A stretch of 33,547 bases of DNA from a virus, in the IMG/VR virus record IMGVR_UViG_3300027784_000525, positions 1 to 33,547 of that record. One strand, 5' to 3'. The notes beneath the pieces are model-generated. The model saw only the letters and a list, made by a program, of their open reading frames with translations. It was not told the DNA's origin and ran no database searches. Positions 94 through 28,024 of the stretch are shown in pieces; position 1 is the first letter of the stretch; every line of letters begins with the position of its first letter. The position numbers and the translations under genes were made by a program.

Positions 94-629
94 GCATAAT
101 AAAGCAGGCAGTGGAACAGGCAGCAAAAAACGAAAGGCTGCACTTGGGCGCAGGGAACCGGGTCAAAAAGGGCTGGGTGAACCACGATTTAACAGCGCAC
201 AGGCCGGAGATCGAGGTGGTGCATAATTTAAACGTCCTGCCGTGGCCTTTTAAAGACGAAACCTTTAAGATAATAGTGGCGCTGAACCTGTTTGAACACT
301 TGGACATTGACCTTGTAACATCGCTTGACGAGTGCTGGCGGATCCTGCAGCCGGGCGGCGTGCTGGAAGTAAAAGTGCCTAATTCTGACGATATTGTTCG
401 CTGCTGGGATGATCCTACGCACAGACGACCTTATAGCTTTGCAAGCTTTAATCCCGTGGACATTAAACAGGCCGACAACGAACGTTATAACTTTTATACG
501 GATCGCAAGTGGCAGATCGAAGAAAAGGGCTACGCTGGGCAGCAGCGCAGCGATGGCGCGTGGTATGATGGGGTCTGGACATCGATCAAGGTTACACTGA
601 TGAAGCCGAAAGGCGGTGGCAAAAAGTGA
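90..629 (+). CDS. Class I SAM-dependent methyltransferase
   Basis: A protein of about 179 residues. The ATG at 90 is chosen over the TTG at 84 because an AGGTG ribosome site (78-82) lies 7 bases ahead and the ATG overlaps the previous stop. Residues near the N-terminus read LHLGAGNRVKKGWVNHD, the glycine-rich SAM-binding loop with its following acidic residue. LNVLPWPFKDETFKIIV and FEHLD follow, as in small methyltransferases that act on sugars or nucleotides. WRILQPGGVLEVKVPN is the usual strand 5 region. The gene ends in a 3-base overlap with a glycosyltransferase, so the pair probably modifies a glycan, plausibly by O-methylating a sugar attached to the virion. The family call is secure; the substrate is inferred. 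Confidence 0.85.
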   Translation: MSIIKQAVEQAAKNERLHLGAGNRVKKGWVNHDLTAHRPEIEVVHNLNVLPWPFKDETFKIIVALNLFEHLDIDLVTSLDECWRILQPGGVLEVKVPNSDDIVRCWDDPTHRRPYSFASFNPVDIKQADNERYNFYTDRKWQIEEKGYAGQQRSDGAWYDGVWTSIKVTLMKPKGGGKK

Positions 630-2425
630 AGGTGCATATAATACGGAACAGGGCACAGACAACGGACATTTTATCGCGCAAGGCGCAAGTGTTAAGTGAT
701 CGGCTGGGCTGGACAATGGGCGCGCAGCCGGATCCGGCAGCGGATCTGCAATATGCTTTCTGTTATATTGATTACAAGGATCCGAAGCTTCCCTTTGCGG
801 CTTACTTTACGCACAGGGAGGACATGCGACCGGACAAGGTGCAGCTCTGGCAGGACAGAGCAAGCAGCGCGCTGCTACGCGTTACAAGTGCGCAGCAATA
901 CTTTGAAGATCTGCAGCAATACGGCGCAGCGGTTAAGATCCTGCCGCCGCTGGATCGCGAAAAGTTTGCTCTGGTGCCCGGCAAGCAGCAAAACAGCGGC
1001 AGCGTGGCTGTGGGCGTGGCTGGCTATGTTTACACTGGCGGCAGAAAGGGCGAGGAATACCTGCAGGCAGCGATCGATCGCGAACCTGATGGGATCTTTA
1101 AGTGGCGTGCTATGGGCAAGGGCTGGCCTGTGCCGTGCAGGCAGTATGATTACAAGGACATTCAGAAATTTTACCAGTCGCTTGATATTTACTTATGCAC
1201 TTCAACGATCGAAGGCGTGCCTTATCCGCCGCTGGAGGCGCTGGCCTGCGGAACGAAAATTGTTATCCCGTGGGGCGTGGGCCTGATGGACGAATTGCCG
1301 GACATTCCCGGCATTGAACGCTATCAAGCAGGCAACGTGGAAGATATGCTGGCCGCGCTGCACAGGTGCGCTGAAGCAAAGGTGGAACCGGAGCAGCTAC
1401 GGGCAGCGACCGAACCCTTCGATCAAGAAGCATGGGCGCAGCAGCACGCTGACGCCTTTGCAGAAGTGGAACAGGTGCTACGACATACGAGCCGGAGTGA
1501 AAATGCGACAGCGGCGGCGACAGTGGCCTTAAACGGTGAACGGGCTGCGCGGCAAAGCAGCGATCGAGGCGTTTACGTGGCAGCCTTCGGAACGCCTGCG
1601 CGCGCCTGCGCGTCCGAACTGATTTATAGTTTGCGAAAGTTTATGCCGGGCCTGCCCGTGGCAGTGGCAAGCGAGGAACCGCTCCCGGAGGCAGATTATC
1701 ATATAGCAGTTGATGAACCGGGGCCGGGCGCAAGGCTGGCGAAGCTGCGGATATACGATCTGGCGCCTAAAGAGTGGCGTTATGTGCTTTATATGGACGC
1801 TGACACGGAGATAACAGAGCCGATCGATTACTTATTCTGGTGCTTGGAACAGGGCTGGGAAGCCGTGTTCGTTAAAGAAGTTACTCATAATCATCGGCAT
1901 ATAGCGCCGGGCAGAGGGGTCGGTGTAACGACCGAGCTGAACGATTATAATTTAACACTGGACGCGATTTTGCAGCCAGAAGGGAATAAGGCTTGGTTAT
2001 CGCTGGGCGGTGGAATAATAAGCTTCAAGCGCTGCGCGGCGGCGAAAAGGTTATTTGACCGCTGGTTCTGGGAATACTGCTATTCTGCGCAGTGGCCTGT
2101 GGACTACAAAAGGGATCAGCCGTCATTATTAAGGGCTTGGTTCGCGGTTAAAATTAAAGCGCTGGTGCTGGGCAGTGAGTGGAATAGCTTTACGCACTGG
2201 CAGCACGAAAACCGCTGCAATATAATAAGACATCACGGCGGCAGGGCGCGCGGTTCTTATGGGCATGATACGGGCGGTCAGGTTCAGGTTAAAAACATGA
2301 GCGATAATGCGATCGAGCGCGGTGGTTACGAGTTTCTGCCGGGCAGCACGGTTCTTTGTAATGCAAGGCGCAAAGGTTTTAATGAAGTCAGGGCTTGTAA
2401 ATCGCTGCAGATTGTGAGAAAATAA
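626..2425 (+). CDS. Two-domain glycosyltransferase (GT-B half plus GT-A domain)
   Basis: 599 residues from a GTG at 626 that overlaps the preceding stop. Residues about 115-265 resemble the C-terminal half of GT4-type enzymes: STIEGVPYPPLEALACG is the classic nucleotide-sugar-binding E-x7-E motif. Residues about 310-550 form a second, GT-A-like domain with RLAKLRIYDLAP and the DxD motif in YMDADTE (near residue 391), which binds metal and sugar nucleotide. The last ~48 residues form a small separate module that is also found in the next gene. Sitting between head and neck genes and coupled to a methyltransferase, it probably glycosylates a structural protein. Acceptor and sugar cannot be read from the sequence. 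Confidence 0.85.
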   Translation: MKVHIIRNRAQTTDILSRKAQVLSDRLGWTMGAQPDPAADLQYAFCYIDYKDPKLPFAAYFTHREDMRPDKVQLWQDRASSALLRVTSAQQYFEDLQQYGAAVKILPPLDREKFALVPGKQQNSGSVAVGVAGYVYTGGRKGEEYLQAAIDREPDGIFKWRAMGKGWPVPCRQYDYKDIQKFYQSLDIYLCTSTIEGVPYPPLEALACGTKIVIPWGVGLMDELPDIPGIERYQAGNVEDMLAALHRCAEAKVEPEQLRAATEPFDQEAWAQQHADAFAEVEQVLRHTSRSENATAAATVALNGERAARQSSDRGVYVAAFGTPARACASELIYSLRKFMPGLPVAVASEEPLPEADYHIAVDEPGPGARLAKLRIYDLAPKEWRYVLYMDADTEITEPIDYLFWCLEQGWEAVFVKEVTHNHRHIAPGRGVGVTTELNDYNLTLDAILQPEGNKAWLSLGGGIISFKRCAAAKRLFDRWFWEYCYSAQWPVDYKRDQPSLLRAWFAVKIKALVLGSEWNSFTHWQHENRCNIIRHHGGRARGSYGHDTGGQVQVKNMSDNAIERGGYEFLPGSTVLCNARRKGFNEVRACKSLQIVRK

Positions 2426-2443
2426 GGCAAGGAGGATTTTCTT

Positions 2444-2728
2444 ATGGCAGGGCGTAAAATGCACGAAGTAACGGTGATCAATAGCATTGACGAACAGGTT
2501 TATCGCGGCGCGCAGGTTTTTGGGCCGCGGCAAGAACGGACGGTTAAGGTAACGGACGGGGAGCTGGCGGAAATAAAAGCCTGCAGGGCTTTAAGCATTT
2601 TCCACGGCGGCATTCCCTGCGATTATCCCGGCTGCGGCTTTATTGCAAAAAGCGACCGGGCCTTATACGCGCATAAACGGAAGCATAAAAAACAAAAGAA
2701 AGGCGGCGGTGATCTGAATGACGAATGA
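2444..2728 (+). CDS. Small protein with C2H2-type zinc finger
   Basis: 94 residues, with ribosome site GGAGGAT at 2431-2437. Residues about 60-80 carry CDYPGCGFIAKSDRALYAHK followed by RKH, a C-x4-C-x12-H-x4-H arrangement like a classical zinc finger, which is uncommon in phage late genes. The N-terminal ~55 residues (VINSIDEQVYRG ... AEIKACRALSIF) match in pattern the C-terminal module of the upstream glycosyltransferase (VKNMSDNAIERGG ... NEVRACKSLQIV). The tail is lysine-rich. Its role is unknown; the context suggests a head or decoration function. It overlaps the next gene by 11 bases. Confidence 0.75.
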   Translation: MAGRKMHEVTVINSIDEQVYRGAQVFGPRQERTVKVTDGELAEIKACRALSIFHGGIPCDYPGCGFIAKSDRALYAHKRKHKKQKKGGGDLNDE

Positions 2729-3137
2729 TAAGGTTTTTTATAGCAGTGTTGAAGACGTGGTTCGCACGACTGGCGTGCGATACGAAGATCTTGGTTTTGA
2801 AAATGATCTTACTTTAAGGCAGTGGATCGCAGACCGTCTGGAAGAAATAAAGGACTTAGTTGATCAGGATCGGAACCGTGATTATGCTCAAGAGGCTGCA
2901 GCAGGCGATCGTGATAAGGTGCCGCCGGGCATACATGGGATCGCGCTGCGGATCATGAGCAATTTAATCGGGCAGGCCATTGTCCGGCGAACATCGCCAA
3001 TCGTGCGCGTGGACGATCTGGCAATTCGGATCACGGAAGATCAGGTGTTCACAAAGGCGATCAAGGACGATTTAAAACGTTATCCGGCAAAGCCGCGCTT
3101 TAGTTTTATGACTATCAGTAAGAAGGATGATGCCTAA
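2718..3137 (+). CDS. Putative head-tail connector (adaptor) protein
   Basis: 139 residues, highly charged and mainly helical by eye, with a C-terminal segment VRVDDLAIRITEDQVFTKAI. Size and position (just before an HK97 gp10-like neck protein, a tail-completion protein and the tail tube) fit the gp6/gp15-type connector that docks on the portal. The start lies inside the preceding gene, after the GGCGGTG/GATCTGA stretch. The stop overlaps the next start (TAATG). The call rests mostly on gene order, because the sequence is too divergent for a motif-based assignment. Confidence 0.6.
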   Translation: MTNDKVFYSSVEDVVRTTGVRYEDLGFENDLTLRQWIADRLEEIKDLVDQDRNRDYAQEAAAGDRDKVPPGIHGIALRIMSNLIGQAIVRRTSPIVRVDDLAIRITEDQVFTKAIKDDLKRYPAKPRFSFMTISKKDDA

Positions 3138-3583
3138 TGCCAGACACTGGCGGTTATAGCATTCACATTGATCCGGGCGAAATGGATCGGCTTGTCGAGC
3201 AGGTCGTTACCGTTTATAAGAGTGCGGTGCAATATATGGCGACCGATCTTTGGGGCCATATAGGTCGCGAAGCTCCCACGAATCACGGGCGGCTGGCAGG
3301 CAGCTTTGATATACAGATGATGGATCCTTATACGTGGCGGATTTTTACTATGGTTCATTATGCAATGTTTGTCCACGAAGGAACAGGCGTTTACGGGCCT
3401 GTCGGACATCCGATCGTTCCCGTGCAAGCGCAGTTCTTAAGGTTCGAGTGGCATGGCAGGATCTGGTTTATGCGCAGCGTCCGCGGTCAAGAGGCGAACC
3501 CTTATATTGACCGGGCAATAGATACCACGAAAAGGCAAAAAATGCAATACGTGGAAAAAGCTTTAAATGAGGTTGCAGCTTAA
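3137..3583 (+). CDS. HK97 gp10-like neck / head closure protein
   Basis: 148 residues. The diagnostic stretch is VHYAMFVHEGTGVYGP, then HPIVP, then a beta segment with a conserved tryptophan (GRIWF) and RGQEANPYIDRAID near the C-terminus. The FVHEGT...P.G..PNPYI pattern is typical of the HK97 gp10 family, which joins head to tail in siphophages. The start ATG overlaps the previous stop, and the product is of the usual family length. Confidence 0.85.
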   Translation: MPDTGGYSIHIDPGEMDRLVEQVVTVYKSAVQYMATDLWGHIGREAPTNHGRLAGSFDIQMMDPYTWRIFTMVHYAMFVHEGTGVYGPVGHPIVPVQAQFLRFEWHGRIWFMRSVRGQEANPYIDRAIDTTKRQKMQYVEKALNEVAA

Positions 3584-3599
3584 AAGGGAGGGCTGAAAA

Positions 3600-4067
3600 G
3601 TGCCGAGTAAAATTTACTTAAATGAAGCGCTGGAACAATGTTTAACGGCGATCGTGGAGCGGCTGGAAAATGCTGCTGGTGAAGGGCAGCCGCTGGGCAA
3701 GGTGCGAAATGTTATCCGCGGCGATCGCAGCAGGCCGAACCCGGAAGCGCCTGCGCTTTGGGTGCGTGGATTAACGGCGACACCTACGCACGAGCAACGA
3801 AGCATGGCTGAAAAATGGCAGGCAGAATATATAATTATTGCTATTGTCAAAAGTATGAAGCCAGAAGAAGGCTATCAGCAGGCGACTGAACTGGCAGCAA
3901 AGGCCCGAACGGAGGTGCTTAAGGATCGCACACTGGGCAAAAGGGATTTCGTGCAGGACGTGCGATCAGGGCAGTTTGAACAATCAGGGCCGGACATGCA
4001 AAACGATACCTTGTTTGCAGCAACGGCAGTTATACAGGTGCATTTCTTAACACTGGAAGACTATTAA
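3600..4067 (+). CDS. Tail completion (terminator)-like protein
   Basis: 155 residues from a GTG at 3600, with an AAGGGAGG site 7 bases upstream. It has an N-terminal helix (EALEQCLTAIVERL), a beta-rich middle (EYIIIAIVKS) and a C-terminal strand (AATAVIQVHFLTLEDY), as in minor tail proteins that cap the tail tube. The assignment relies on its place directly between the gp10-like protein and the tail tube. Confidence 0.6.
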   Translation: MPSKIYLNEALEQCLTAIVERLENAAGEGQPLGKVRNVIRGDRSRPNPEAPALWVRGLTATPTHEQRSMAEKWQAEYIIIAIVKSMKPEEGYQQATELAAKARTEVLKDRTLGKRDFVQDVRSGQFEQSGPDMQNDTLFAATAVIQVHFLTLEDY

Positions 4068-4086
4068 ATGAAAGGAGGCGATTTAA

Positions 4087-5103
4087 GTGGCTAATAAAAT
4101 CAGGCGTTATTGTGGGATCGCAGAGGAAGCGGTTTACGGCGAAGAAAGCTCGCCTGAAGCCGCGGTTCACTTGGATATTGCAAGCGCTTCGCTTGACGTT
4201 CCAACGGACACGAATATTTTTTATGAGGGTGGTGCACAGCGGTCGGCACGGCTGCACAGGCCGGGATTTTATGCTCCTACCGGCGATATAGTTTATGCGC
4301 TGGACATAAGAACGATCGGCTGGTTTTTAAAGTGGGCGCTTGGGCAGTATGTTTATACTGGTGCAGGCGGCAGCAATGGCACGAACCTTCACGAGTTTTA
4401 TGGCACAAAGCAGACGCGGCTTTCAAGTTTTTGCGCGCGGATCGGGAAGGATATATTTGAGCATATTTTTTCCGGTTGCATTATTAACAGCTTGGAAATA
4501 AACGTGGGCGATGCGCTTTGCATGGCAACGGTGGACGTGGCTGCAAAGCAGGACGCAAAAGGTGCTCTTGAAACGGGCGACCTGCTATTCCCGGAAGAAT
4601 ATCCGCTGGCATTTCACGAAGTTACAGCTTATCTTATCGGATCTCCCGATGACGAGATAAGCACAAAGGTCAAGGAATTAACGCTTACCATTAACAATAA
4701 TGCAAGCGCGGATGATGGGCGCCACGTGGGATCACGGCATCCCGGTCAAGTGCCCGTGGGTGATCGCGAAACTACGTTAAGCCTTGATCTGTTTTATGAA
4801 GATACGGATATGCTGGAAAAGCTCTGGGGCGGCTCGGTCGGGCCTGCCGCTGGCGGATCTACTGAATACGGGATCCGGCTTGAGCTTGACGCTGGTGTTC
4901 ACGGCGTTTTAAAGGTTGACCTGCCGAAAGTGATTAATACTACGGTCGGGCAGCAGCCGTCAGGGCGCGATGAAGTAACGCAAAACGTGGAAGTCCGGGC
5001 CTTGATCGATACGATCGTGCTGGACGATGGATCGACCGAAGTGGATAGTGAAATACTGGCAAGCTTGGAAAATAACGAAGATGAAATGAGCGTTACGAGT
5101 TAA
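4087..5103 (+). CDS. Major tail tube protein
   Basis: 338 residues from a GTG at 4087 behind AAAGGAGG. It is beta-rich with a pattern common in phage tube subunits: an N-terminal YCGIAEEAVYGEE, which matches the xGIxxExxxGT start of many tube proteins, a central immunity-like set of strands, and LTLTINNNA followed by R...GQVPVGDRETTLSLDLFYED. The gene is followed by the chaperone pair and tape measure, the standard siphophage order. It is longer than minimal tube proteins, so it may carry an extra surface domain. Confidence 0.8.
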   Translation: MANKIRRYCGIAEEAVYGEESSPEAAVHLDIASASLDVPTDTNIFYEGGAQRSARLHRPGFYAPTGDIVYALDIRTIGWFLKWALGQYVYTGAGGSNGTNLHEFYGTKQTRLSSFCARIGKDIFEHIFSGCIINSLEINVGDALCMATVDVAAKQDAKGALETGDLLFPEEYPLAFHEVTAYLIGSPDDEISTKVKELTLTINNNASADDGRHVGSRHPGQVPVGDRETTLSLDLFYEDTDMLEKLWGGSVGPAAGGSTEYGIRLELDAGVHGVLKVDLPKVINTTVGQQPSGRDEVTQNVEVRALIDTIVLDDGSTEVDSEILASLENNEDEMSVTS

Positions 5104-21345: not shown

Positions 21346-21374
21346 TTTACAAAGGGTCTGATGCATGGTATTAT
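21346..21374 (+). promoter_or_regulatory. Near-consensus extended -10 promoter of the ncRNA/hammerhead module
   Basis: TTTACA at 21346-21351 (5 of 6), a 17-base spacer, and TATTAT at 21369-21374 (5 of 6) preceded by TGG (21366-21368), an extended -10 element. Transcription should start near 21381. Confidence 0.8.
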
Positions 21375-21380
21375 ATAGTT

Positions 21381-21737
21381 GCAAGAGGGAAAGGGAAAAC
21401 AGCAAGACCGAACCTTGAAAACAGAATAGCAGCTGCAAGCCGGGAAACCTTAAGGGCCGGGCACAGCCAAAAGAAAGAGGCTGACGGGAGCAGGAACCGC
21501 GAAACACTGGCAAGGTAAAACGAAGGGCAGCTGCAAGACTGGCGAAAGCCACGGGTGGCGCCGATATAACGCTGGGGAGCCGAGAGGCTTTAAAAGGATA
21601 ACACGGCGCAGGAGCTGCAAGAAGGAGCAGGCGAGGATGGCGGTGGATAGGTAAACAAGACCCCGAAGAAGGCGGCCATTGCAAGGCCGCTTAAGCGAAG
21701 CCGAAATAACCGGGCAGCGGAAACGCTGCCCGTTATA
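21381..21737 (+). ncRNA. Large structured non-coding RNA, ended by hammerhead cleavage
   Basis: No plus-strand ORF with a ribosome site lies between the promoter and 21806. Compact helices with loops typical of folded RNA are visible: CAGCC/GGCTG (21464-21483), TGGC-GAAA-GCCA (21540-21551), AGCC-GAGA-GGCT (21578-21589), and GCGGCC/GGCCGC around ATTGCAA (21672-21690). Stem III of the ribozyme is also capped by GAAA (21720-21723). The motif GCTGCAAG recurs at 21432, 21530 and 21614 (GTTGCAAG at 21378). The 3' end would be set by ribozyme cleavage after 21737. Size and style recall the ornate phage RNAs (GOLLD, ROOL), but I cannot match it to a known class. Confidence 0.7.
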
Positions 21738-21778
21738 CGCTGCAGACTGACCGCTGCGGTGCTGATGAGGCAGGTTAA
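21691..21778 (+). ncRNA. Hammerhead ribozyme A (type II)
   Basis: Core elements in type II order: GCC (21700-21702), GAAA (21703-21706), stem III (TAAC...GGGCAGCG, GAAA loop, CGCTGCCC-GTTA, one bulged C) to 21735, U21736 pairing with A21706, and A21737 as the cleavage nucleotide. Stem I is CGCTGCAG (21738-21745) with CTGCGGTG (21754-21761), eight pairs of which two are wobbles. CTGATGA (21762-21768) and GGC (21769-21771) close stem II with GCC. TTAA at 21691 and 21775 could extend stem II. Every catalytic-core base is present. It sits between the ncRNA and the ribosome site of the amidoligase gene. Confidence 0.93.
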
Positions 21779-21805: not shown

Positions 21806-22636
21806 ATGAAAAAGGAACAGGTTAACGGATTTAACACGGAGCGGACTTTTGGAGTAGAGATTGAGTTTTTAGGACACGCGAACGCAGTGGCCGCAAAGTG
21901 CCGGGCAATGGGCATTGATTGCAGAGTTGAAAACTATAACCACGAAAACCGCGAATGGTGGAAAATAGTTACTGACGCAAGTGTTAACGGAGCCGGAGAA
22001 GGGCTGGAGATTGTGAGCCCGATATTGCACGGCCGCGAAGGGCTGGAAGCAGTTAAAACAGTTTGTGCAGCGTTGGAAGCAGCAGGCGCGACAGTAAATG
22101 TAACATGCGGCCTGCACGTGCATCACGGAGCAGAGGACTTTAACGTTAACAGTTTTAAAAACATTACTTTACTTTATACCCGATACGAAAAAACGATTGA
22201 CAGCCTGATGCCGAAAAGCCGGCGCGGCAGTAATAACACTTACTGCGCAAGTTTGTTTGACTTGCAGCACGCGACCTTTAGCAGCGCGCAGCGCTTTATG
22301 GAATGGATTTACAATGCACGCGATACCGACCAGTTGCTTGACTTTTTTAGCAGGCGCTTTTTAAAGCTGAACCTGCGCGCTTACCGGGCGCACTCGACAG
22401 TAGAGTTTAGGCAGCACAGCGGAACGACAGAAGCCGCGAAAGTTGTTAACTGGATTTTGTTAACGCAAGCAATGGTTAACAAAGCGACAGAGCGCACGGT
22501 GCTGAACCCGGCGAACGTTGACGACAGCTGGAAAAGCTTTAAAAAAGCAGTGGCCTTGACGGGCTACCGCGGAGCGACAGAAGAACTGCAGGCGGTGCAG
22601 CGGTTTTATGGCAAGCGCCGGAAGCAGTTAGCATAA
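21806..22636 (+). CDS. Amidoligase-family enzyme
   Basis: 276 residues behind AAAGGAGC. Motifs follow the glutamine-synthetase-like amidoligase family: FGVEIEF near the N-terminus (metal-binding acidic residues), WKIVTDASVNG, GLEIVSPIL, CGLHVHHG (histidines of the active site), MPKSRRGSNNTYC, and HSTVEFRQHSGTT with N-W-I following. Such enzymes are predicted to form amide or peptide bonds using ATP, for example adding glutamate or other amines to proteins or peptides. The gene lies between hammerheads A and B and contains no GATC, unlike most of the phage. A gamma-glutamylcyclotransferase gene 3 kb downstream is a natural functional partner. Confidence 0.88.
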   Translation: MKKEQVNGFNTERTFGVEIEFLGHANAVAAKCRAMGIDCRVENYNHENREWWKIVTDASVNGAGEGLEIVSPILHGREGLEAVKTVCAALEAAGATVNVTCGLHVHHGAEDFNVNSFKNITLLYTRYEKTIDSLMPKSRRGSNNTYCASLFDLQHATFSSAQRFMEWIYNARDTDQLLDFFSRRFLKLNLRAYRAHSTVEFRQHSGTTEAAKVVNWILLTQAMVNKATERTVLNPANVDDSWKSFKKAVALTGYRGATEELQAVQRFYGKRRKQLA

Positions 22637-22638
22637 CA

Positions 22639-22707
22639 GCCGAAACCGGGCGGAGCAGCAGCGGCCTGCCCGGTATGCAAAGGGTGCCGCCTTTGCACTG
22701 ATGAGGC
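22639..22707 (+). ncRNA. Hammerhead ribozyme B (type II)
   Basis: It starts two bases after the amidoligase stop. GCC (22639-22641) and GAAA (22642-22645) lead into stem III CCGGGC/GCCCGG (22646-22651 with 22668-22673), then U22674 and A22675, with cleavage after A22675. Stem I is TGCAAAGG (22676-22683) with CCTTTGCA (22690-22697), eight Watson-Crick pairs. CTGATGA lies at 22698-22704 and GGC at 22705-22707, closing stem II with GCC. The next ribosome site (CGGGAGG) lies about 25 bases downstream, so a cleaved mRNA keeps its translation signal. Confidence 0.95.
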
Positions 22708-23532: not shown

Positions 23533-23766
23533 ATGATTAAAATTACATTAGAAACTGGCAAAACATACGAGGCTGAAACTTACGAAAGGCTTATAACAGT
23601 GCTGGCGCGAACCAGTTATTTACAGGAAAGCAAGTTTGACTATATGGCGAACGTGGCGAAGCGCTGCAATATATGGAACGGCGCTGAAATTGAATACCAT
23701 AACGCCGAAAGCTTTATTAAGGAGTTGCAGCGCGTGGGCGTGGTGCAGGAGCTATGGGAAGAATAA
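23533..23766 (+). CDS. Hypothetical early protein
   Basis: 77 residues with CAGGAGG ahead. It begins with a beta hairpin (IKITLETGKTYEAETYE) and ends in a short helical region (YHNAESFIKELQRVGVVQEL). No family is recognised. Its stop codon (23764-23766) touches the first pairing base of hammerhead C, so the 3' end of this mRNA would be the ribozyme product. Confidence 0.75.
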   Translation: MIKITLETGKTYEAETYERLITVLARTSYLQESKFDYMANVAKRCNIWNGAEIEYHNAESFIKELQRVGVVQELWEE

Positions 23767-23827
23767 GCTGAAACCGGGCCGAGTGCCCGGTATGCTGGGA
23801 ACTGGGCGAACCAGCACTGATGAAGCT
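23766..23827 (+). ncRNA. Hammerhead ribozyme C (type II)
   Basis: AGCT (23766-23769) pairs with AGCT (23824-23827) as stem II. GAAA (23770-23773) leads to stem III CCGGGC, loop CGAGT, GCCCGG (23774-23790), then U23791 and A23792; cleavage is after A23792. Stem I is TGCTGG (23793-23798) with CCAGCA (23811-23816) around a 12-base loop. CTGATGA lies at 23817-23823. Stem sequences differ from copies A and B, but the core is identical, so the fold is kept by covariation. It directly follows a stop codon and lies ahead of the AAAGGAGG of the next gene. Confidence 0.95.
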
Positions 23828-23858
23828 GCCCGTTGTATAAAACAAAGGAGGCAATAAT

Positions 23859-24053
23859 ATGAACGGACAAAAAGGATACCACGAAAAGAATTTTAAGGTA
23901 ACATTTACCACGGAGCAGGAAGTTTGGGCGCGTTTACGGGACATGCTTTACCATTATAAGGACGGAACCTTGACAGTTAACGAAAAATTAAAGCCGAAAA
24001 TGCAAGAGCTTGAGGAATTTTTAATTGACAACGATTGCGAATACTTTTGGTAA
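23859..24053 (+). CDS. Hypothetical early protein
   Basis: 64 residues, first gene after hammerhead C, with AAAGGAGG ahead. The sequence is charged with two likely helices (TTEQEVWARLRDMLYHY, EKLKPKMQELEEFLIDNDCE). No family is recognised. It is the last gene of the GATC-poor module; GATC becomes frequent again from 24074. Confidence 0.7.
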   Translation: MNGQKGYHEKNFKVTFTTEQEVWARLRDMLYHYKDGTLTVNEKLKPKMQELEEFLIDNDCEYFW

Positions 24054-27652: not shown

Positions 27653-28024
27653 ATGGGTGTTTTAACCACGACCGAAAAAGGCAGCCTCTTATACCGGGGC
27701 CGCTTTGATCGGCGAGTTGTAGAGGCGATTAAACAGTTACCGGGCAGGCGTTATGACCCTGAAACTAAAGAATGGACAATGCCGCCGGATCCGGAGGCGA
27801 TCGATCTGCTGCAGCAGTTTGAGCAGGTTAGGATCACGCCTGAAGCATGGAGGGCCGTGCAGGCAAGGGAAGAACGGGCCGCGGCGGTTATGGTTGCAAA
27901 GCAGGAGGAAAAACCTGTGCCGCTGCAGCCGATGCCGCTTAAAGGCGTGGAGCCTTTTGCACATCAGATAACGGGCTACAATGTGGCGCTATCACTGTTT
28001 AGATTGGAGGTGCAAGATGAATAA
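27653..28024 (+). CDS. HARP-like N-terminal part of a split SNF2 helicase
   Basis: 123 residues. Residues 10-50 (LLYRGRFDRRVVEAIKQLPG then RYDPETKEWTMP) match the HARP-like domain that precedes SNF2 ATPases in phages. Residues about 95-118 (PMPLKGVEPFAHQITGYNVA then LSLF) are the Q-motif region that should run straight into the P-loop. Instead the frame ends in RLEVQDE and TAA at 28022-28024. The ATPase resumes 49 bases later in the same frame. The helicase is thus split into two coupled genes, or was interrupted by the small insertion between them. Confidence 0.75.
   Translation: MGVLTTTEKGSLLYRGRFDRRVVEAIKQLPGRRYDPETKEWTMPPDPEAIDLLQQFEQVRITPEAWRAVQAREERAAAVMVAKQEEKPVPLQPMPLKGVEPFAHQITGYNVALSLFRLEVQDE

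Follow-up and report, generated by a model that had tools for sequence, protein, structure and literature searches.

The role of prokaryotic hammerhead ribozymes has been called an open question (PMC6155905), and that of the phage representatives has been under discussion since 2011, when Perreault et al. proposed that arrays of these ribozymes divide phage transcripts into mRNAs of gene length (PMC3088659). The locus described here raises the question in a specific form: what would a hammerhead do between two small phage genes when its first base is also the last base of the upstream stop codon? The window, i.e. the whole stretch of 33,547 nucleotides analysed (IMG/VR record IMGVR_UViG_3300027784_000525), is a linear virus record of 33.5 kb; siphovirus tail genes lie on its left, and a run of small genes starts at 21.8 kb. 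Three type II hammerheads (copies A, B, and C) were located in it, the last of which occupies the junction in question. The reading preferred here, with a probability of about 0.72, is that C is a cis-acting hammerhead with a predicted mRNA cut at 23792/23793, between the genes for proteins of 77 and 64 aa.

Anatomy and identity of ribozyme C

The junction comprises the following features.

23533-23766, + strand: upstream gene, 77 aa, TAA stop at 23764-23766
23766-23827, + strand: ribozyme C, complete type II hammerhead (sequence, Rfam, descriptor, fold)
23766-23769, + strand: stem II 5' strand AGCU, first base being the final A of TAA; innermost pair U11.1-A10.1
23770-23772, + strand: core GAA (G12 A13 A14; sequence, Rfam alignment)
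23773-23791, + strand: stem III hairpin ACCGGGC-CGAGU-GCCCGGU, arms 23773-23779 and 23785-23791 (sequence, descriptor, fold)
23792/23793, + strand: predicted cleavage site, 3' of A17 (23792), GUA^U, from its position within the hammerhead core
23793-23816, + strand: stem I hairpin UGCUGG - 12-nt loop - CCAGCA, arms 23793-23798 and 23811-23816
23803-23808, + strand: loop I side of the pseudoknot, UGGGCG, pairing with 23827-23832 through four Watson-Crick and two G-U pairs
23817-23823, + strand: core CUGAUGA (C3-A9; sequence)
23824-23827, + strand: stem II 3' strand AGCU (sequence, descriptor)
23827-23832, + strand: 3' tail side of the pseudoknot, UGCCCG (descriptor, permutation test)
23845-23851, + strand: Shine-Dalgarno sequence AAGGAGG of the downstream gene (sequence)
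23859-24053, + strand: downstream gene, 64 aa (ORF list)

By sequence and predicted structure, C is a hammerhead of a kind already known. Stems I and III are closed by loops and both RNA ends lie in stem II, as found by descriptor and fold alike, which is the type II arrangement; the NUH cleavage-site triplet is GUA (23790-23792), and the A15.1-U16.1 pair is formed by 23773 and 23791. The original prediction of a hammerhead at 23766-23827, with an AGCT/AGCT stem II beginning on the final base of a TAA codon, is borne out on both counts. Neither neighbouring gene has a Pfam or PHROG match. Homologues of the 77-aa gene at 43-52% identity occur in six related records (L003 and L004-L008) and in the contig L099, so that the reading frame and its stop codon can be taken as real.

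The covariance-model search suggested alongside the original prediction was carried out with Rfam RF02276 (Hammerhead_II). C scored 32.0 bits, with E 1.7e-6 in the single-family search of the record and E 0.0074 across all 4,227 families; the single-family E value supports the assignment, but the score falls below the gathering score of 37 bits set as the curators' threshold. A type II descriptor gave three matches in the window (A, B, and C), all on the coding strand and all intergenic, and none in 10 Mb of simulated first-order Markov sequence of the same dinucleotide composition. Every descriptor match, in the window as in the related records, is oriented as its flanking genes, and descriptors for type I and type III hammerheads found none in the records of this family. 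The minimum-energy, pseudoknot-free fold of 23760-23836 is exactly the three-way junction of C; since its z is only -1.2, the folding energy by itself is no evidence for C. A separate Rfam match to Pseudomonas P10 at 27779-27831 (E 0.35) was at chance level and was discarded.

The strong GC-rich stem III directly 3' of the stop raises the thought that the hairpins alone might matter, as a 3' stabiliser or a roadblock with no ribozyme activity. Such a reading is scarcely credible, because it is the unpaired CUGAUGA and GAA together with A15.1-U16.1 that are kept and not the hairpins, and because C lacks a U-tract and a search for terminator-like sites found none there.

With the type II family of RF02276 described by Perreault et al. 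(PMC3088659), C shares the core, the open stem II, the closed stems I and III, the pseudoknot between loop I and the 3' tail, and the setting in intergenic clusters of phage genomes; it differs in its A10.1-U11.1 pair and in drawing a stop-codon base into stem II. In the pseudoknotted hammerhead crystal of 2024 (PDB 8YDC, PMC11300833) the pseudoknot likewise takes the structural role of helix II, and the same G8/G12 chemistry would be expected of C, although that construct is a designed one with a G10.1-C11.1 pair. The theta ribozymes of gut phages (PMC10879173) are also small self-cleaving phage RNAs tied to gene ends, but they have an HDV-like fold and trim the 3' ends of tRNAs rather than mRNA junctions.

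Selection on the fold and copying within genomes

Two features of C lie outside the original prediction, namely the loop I/tail pseudoknot and the A10.1-U11.1 pair in place of G-C. The letters of the pseudoknot vary from copy to copy (UGACC/GGUUA in A, UGCC/GGCA in B, UGGGCG/UGCCCG in C), and the pairing is specific to each ribozyme. Among 106 non-redundant phage ribozymes, a set for which the pseudoknot was not required for inclusion, the mean number of Watson-Crick pairs is 4.0 between true loop I and tail partners and 2.9 between mismatched ones (p<=2e-4); among 13 family members the figures are 4.8 and 3.1 pairs (p=5e-5, permuted partners). In C, U23827 may pair either with A23766 in stem II or with loop I in the pseudoknot, so that the pair made by the stop codon is the outermost and weakest of stem II. 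Shortening the pseudoknot has been reported to reduce the cleavage rate by about 20- to >100-fold, with activity restored by a compensatory mutation (PMC3088659).

The original prediction had further claimed that the core is identical in the three copies while stem I and the loops differ, and that this reflects selection on the fold rather than recent copying. The three copies do agree in CUGAUGA, GAA, and A15.1-U16.1, and C does depart from the other two in stem I and in its loops; stem III of C (CCGGGC/GCCCGG), in contrast, is the same as that of B. Selection is upheld on broader grounds: stems and pseudoknots vary between the genomes of related phages with pairing kept, which makes a well-supported case, from sequence comparison, that the fold of phage type II hammerheads is under selection. 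The exclusion of copying does not survive, given the stem III common to B and C and the frequency of such sharing within genomes. Among 150 ribozymes, the 5' six-mer of stem III is identical in 20% of same-contig pairs as against 0.7% of different-contig pairs, and mean stem III identity within contigs exceeds permutation (p 0.0005) while that of stem I shows no such excess. Within-genome copying or conversion therefore belongs to the history of these elements, although a common base composition may add to the resemblance.

These data bear on whether C might be a weak or decaying duplicate of B, which would retain the fold but cleave slowly or not at all. The shared stem III and the significance of within-genome sharing speak for this, as do the Rfam score below the gathering threshold and the innermost stem II pair: it is G-C in A and B, and C11.1-G10.1 is present in 143 of 148 sampled phage ribozymes, a consensus of the most conserved stem II pair from which C departs. 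Relatives that carry no ribozyme at the orthologous junction (see below) add to the case. C differs from B, however, in stem I, in stem II, and in the pseudoknot, and yet every pair is intact, unlike what decay would leave; A10.1-U11.1 is itself a Watson-Crick pair and recurs in one other phage ribozyme (L110, 10088), and even U-U at 10.1-11.1 is known in active ribozymes (PMC3088659). Decay is accordingly regarded as unlikely.

A variation next to this pair was also seen: about one in seven of the sampled phage type II ribozymes has a single U or A inserted between A9 and 10.1, as at L003 5895-5964 and 8542-8613, L086 15054-15112, and L099 2225-2283. One of the otherwise near-identical ribozymes of L004 and L007 has the extra nucleotide and the other is without it.

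Placement at stop codons

The position of C was compared with that of 152 non-redundant pseudoknotted type II ribozymes, collected by two pattern scans of IMG/VR that left stem II unconstrained and from the family records. An upstream stop lies within 300 nt of 139 of them. Of these ribozymes, 100 begin at -3 to +4 nt relative to the end of the stop (1.8% for random positions), and the median distance from ribozyme to next start codon is 26-28 nt. Placement at the stop codon is thus general among phage type II hammerheads. A second class, to which A belongs, lies far from any stop, at up to about 280 nt, yet its spacing to the start codon is unchanged.

The identity of the stop codon is biased as well. 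Where the last base of the stop lies inside the inner stem II pairs or one base outside them, UAG accounts for 33 of 55 stops, 32 of them with the G facing a C, whereas it accounts for only 10 of 62 when the ribozyme begins further 3' and for 280 of 1,211 (23%) long open frames in the same contigs; the excess is significant against the two comparison sets (p=8e-7 and 1e-8). When each contig contributes a single ribozyme and stops are taken from the longest open frame, the counts are 12/20 and 3/29 (p=3e-4). These phages thus often make the stop codon part of stem II; C, with A23766-U23827, is a rarer UAA version. Neither the anchoring at stop codons nor the UAG bias was found in the open literature searched; the two most relevant papers, among them Perreault et al. 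(PMC3088659), are silent on stop codons.

The simplest account of the anchoring is one of economy, in which C is a constitutive processor of some 65 nt squeezed between a stop codon and a ribosome-binding site; it opposes any gating by the ribosome and not cleavage itself. The gap is nearly filled, ribozymes lying 0-4 nt from the stop with the start codon mostly 12-40 nt downstream, and the ribozymes of the leader type (A) stand far from stops with their 3' spacing unchanged. Uniform draws within the same gaps already give 44 of 79 flush placements, and tight gaps account for most of the stop-codon adjacency; the observed figure is nevertheless higher, at 53 of 79 (maximum 54 in 5,000 draws). 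Economy alone does not predict the UAG excess at stem II, although economy combined with stem II pairing does. The chances of this account are judged to be about even.

The bolder alternative is that phage type II hammerheads are sensors of translation termination, held open by the ribosome at the stop codon because this codon, often a UAG with its G paired, supplies part of stem II. A terminating ribosome extends about 10 nt beyond the stop. At C, both the 5' strand of stem II and the GAA would fall within this reach, such that folding would be delayed until release. If this were true, the cut would occur only without a terminating ribosome or just after its release, and segmentation of the message would be coupled to translation; as a general property of these ribozymes it is considered doubtful.

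Use of the AUG within CUGAUGA as a start codon was considered and set aside, since an open frame follows in 43 of 148 cases (offsets -5 to -8), about the one in three given by chance, and the genes checked carry their own downstream Shine-Dalgarno sequences.

Copies A and B and the amidoligase gene

Copy B lies upstream of C within one gene run, and A and B flank a gene for an amidoligase.

21700-21771, + strand: copy A, type II hammerhead closing a noncoding leader and preceding the amidoligase gene (descriptor)
21806-22636, + strand: amidoligase gene (Pfam Amidoligase_2 1.5e-42; PHROG 2443)
22639-22707, + strand: copy B, type II hammerhead following the amidoligase stop at 22634-22636 (Rfam 41.3 bits, descriptor)

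Copy A has no Rfam match at E<=1 and a fold z of -4.0. On the minus strand (21711-21732), its stem III also scores as terminator-like, a T-rich tail following the hairpin, which is probably a coincidence. The region before it (21346-21700; about 5540-5890 in L003) contains a promoter-like TTTACA-17-TATTAT with TG and then a noncoding leader of ~270 nt, whose 3' end is ribozyme A. This leader is strongly conserved with L003 in long identical blocks (for example GACCGAACCTTGAAAACAGAATAGC, boxA-like), folds well (z -2.6), and belongs to no Rfam family; it is possibly a structured RNA of a new type or an antitermination leader, and cleavage by A would free it from the downstream mRNA. A comparable case is HHphage of the haloarchaeal viruses HF1/HF2, which precedes the start codon of an early gene by 13 nt and has a 5' end mapped no more than three nucleotides from its cleavage site; it differs in having a variant core and an archaeal virus as its bearer (PMC3088659).

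In the related 39-kb record L003 (amidoligase 77% identical), ribozymes stand on both sides of the amidoligase gene and, further on, at a TAG stop. In L004-L007 (amidoligase 44-46%), one ribozyme follows the amidoligase gene and another precedes an AIG2-like gene, and L008 has a U-U-type ribozyme with a 7-bp pseudoknot after the amidoligase gene and one more elsewhere. L099 (PWGE01000224.1), a 4,970-bp contig of a MAG labelled Sumerlaeota, has four hammerheads, two of which bracket the amidoligase gene; its region 1900-4970 holds phage-like amidoligase and 77-aa genes, and two hammerheads there follow near-identical promoter-plus-leader units. A ribozyme 3' of the amidoligase gene, with different stems, is hence found in five divergent lineages (window, L003, L004-L007, L008, L099). 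The orthologous junction after the 77-aa gene contains no ribozyme in L003, L004, or L008, so copy C is not conserved in place.

Further searches with baits were largely empty: the glycosyltransferase-like protein of the left end retrieved no relative, a DUF6011 protein retrieved only the L003 contig already known, and the amidoligase found no relative among genome contigs. The exact B/C-like pattern had 0 matches in viral contigs, and neither the leader nor the C junction had a blastn match among INPHARED phages. L121 (IMGVR 3300017605_000570) carries ~ten type II ribozymes in ~3 kb on the reverse strand (about 210-3030), spaced at roughly one per small gene.

The bracket around the amidoligase gene, common to the window, L003, and L099, suggests that this gene may need a message of its own. 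It could also be read in the manner of retrozymes, with pairs of ribozymes excising gene-length RNAs that are ligated into circles and C forming one end. The ends left by hammerhead cleavage are substrates of RtcB, which counts for such circles; no RtcB, however, was found in seven family records, all of them fragments, and a unit from B to C would enclose three genes. Perreault et al. searched for products of splicing or circularisation without detecting any (PMC3088659), and circle formation is held to be very improbable.

Proposed role

In the preferred reading of C as a cis-acting hammerhead, a polycistronic phage message would be cut at 23792/23793. The upstream RNA would then end 26 nt past the stop in the stem III hairpin and a 2',3'-cyclic phosphate, and the downstream RNA would carry a 5'-OH and be headed by the stem I hairpin and pseudoknot, just before AAGGAGG; together, A, B, and C would split the message of the amidoligase region into gene-sized units with structured ends. 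Cleavage in the cell, protection of the ends, and ribosome-delayed folding are what we infer from the arrangement. The proposed cut extends the array proposal of Perreault et al., who saw native polycistronic RNAs of ~2 kb cleaved in vitro by clustered prophage hammerheads and, in E. coli, cleavage by a trio from Agrobacterium (PMC3088659).

The proposal draws on the anatomy of C, on covariation, on a position that recurs in the gap from stop codon to ribosome-binding site, and on the stop-codon base in stem II. Against it stand the rarity of A10.1-U11.1, the score below the Rfam threshold, the lack of conservation in place, and the adjacency expected from tight gaps.

The placement described here suggests that phage ribozymes cut long messages gene by gene, perhaps sensing the end of translation. 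Anchoring at the stop codon, the UAG bias, and the steady presence of a ribozyme after the amidoligase gene provide testable handles on the role of phage hammerheads, concerning both cleavage at gene junctions and its dependence on translation of the upstream gene.
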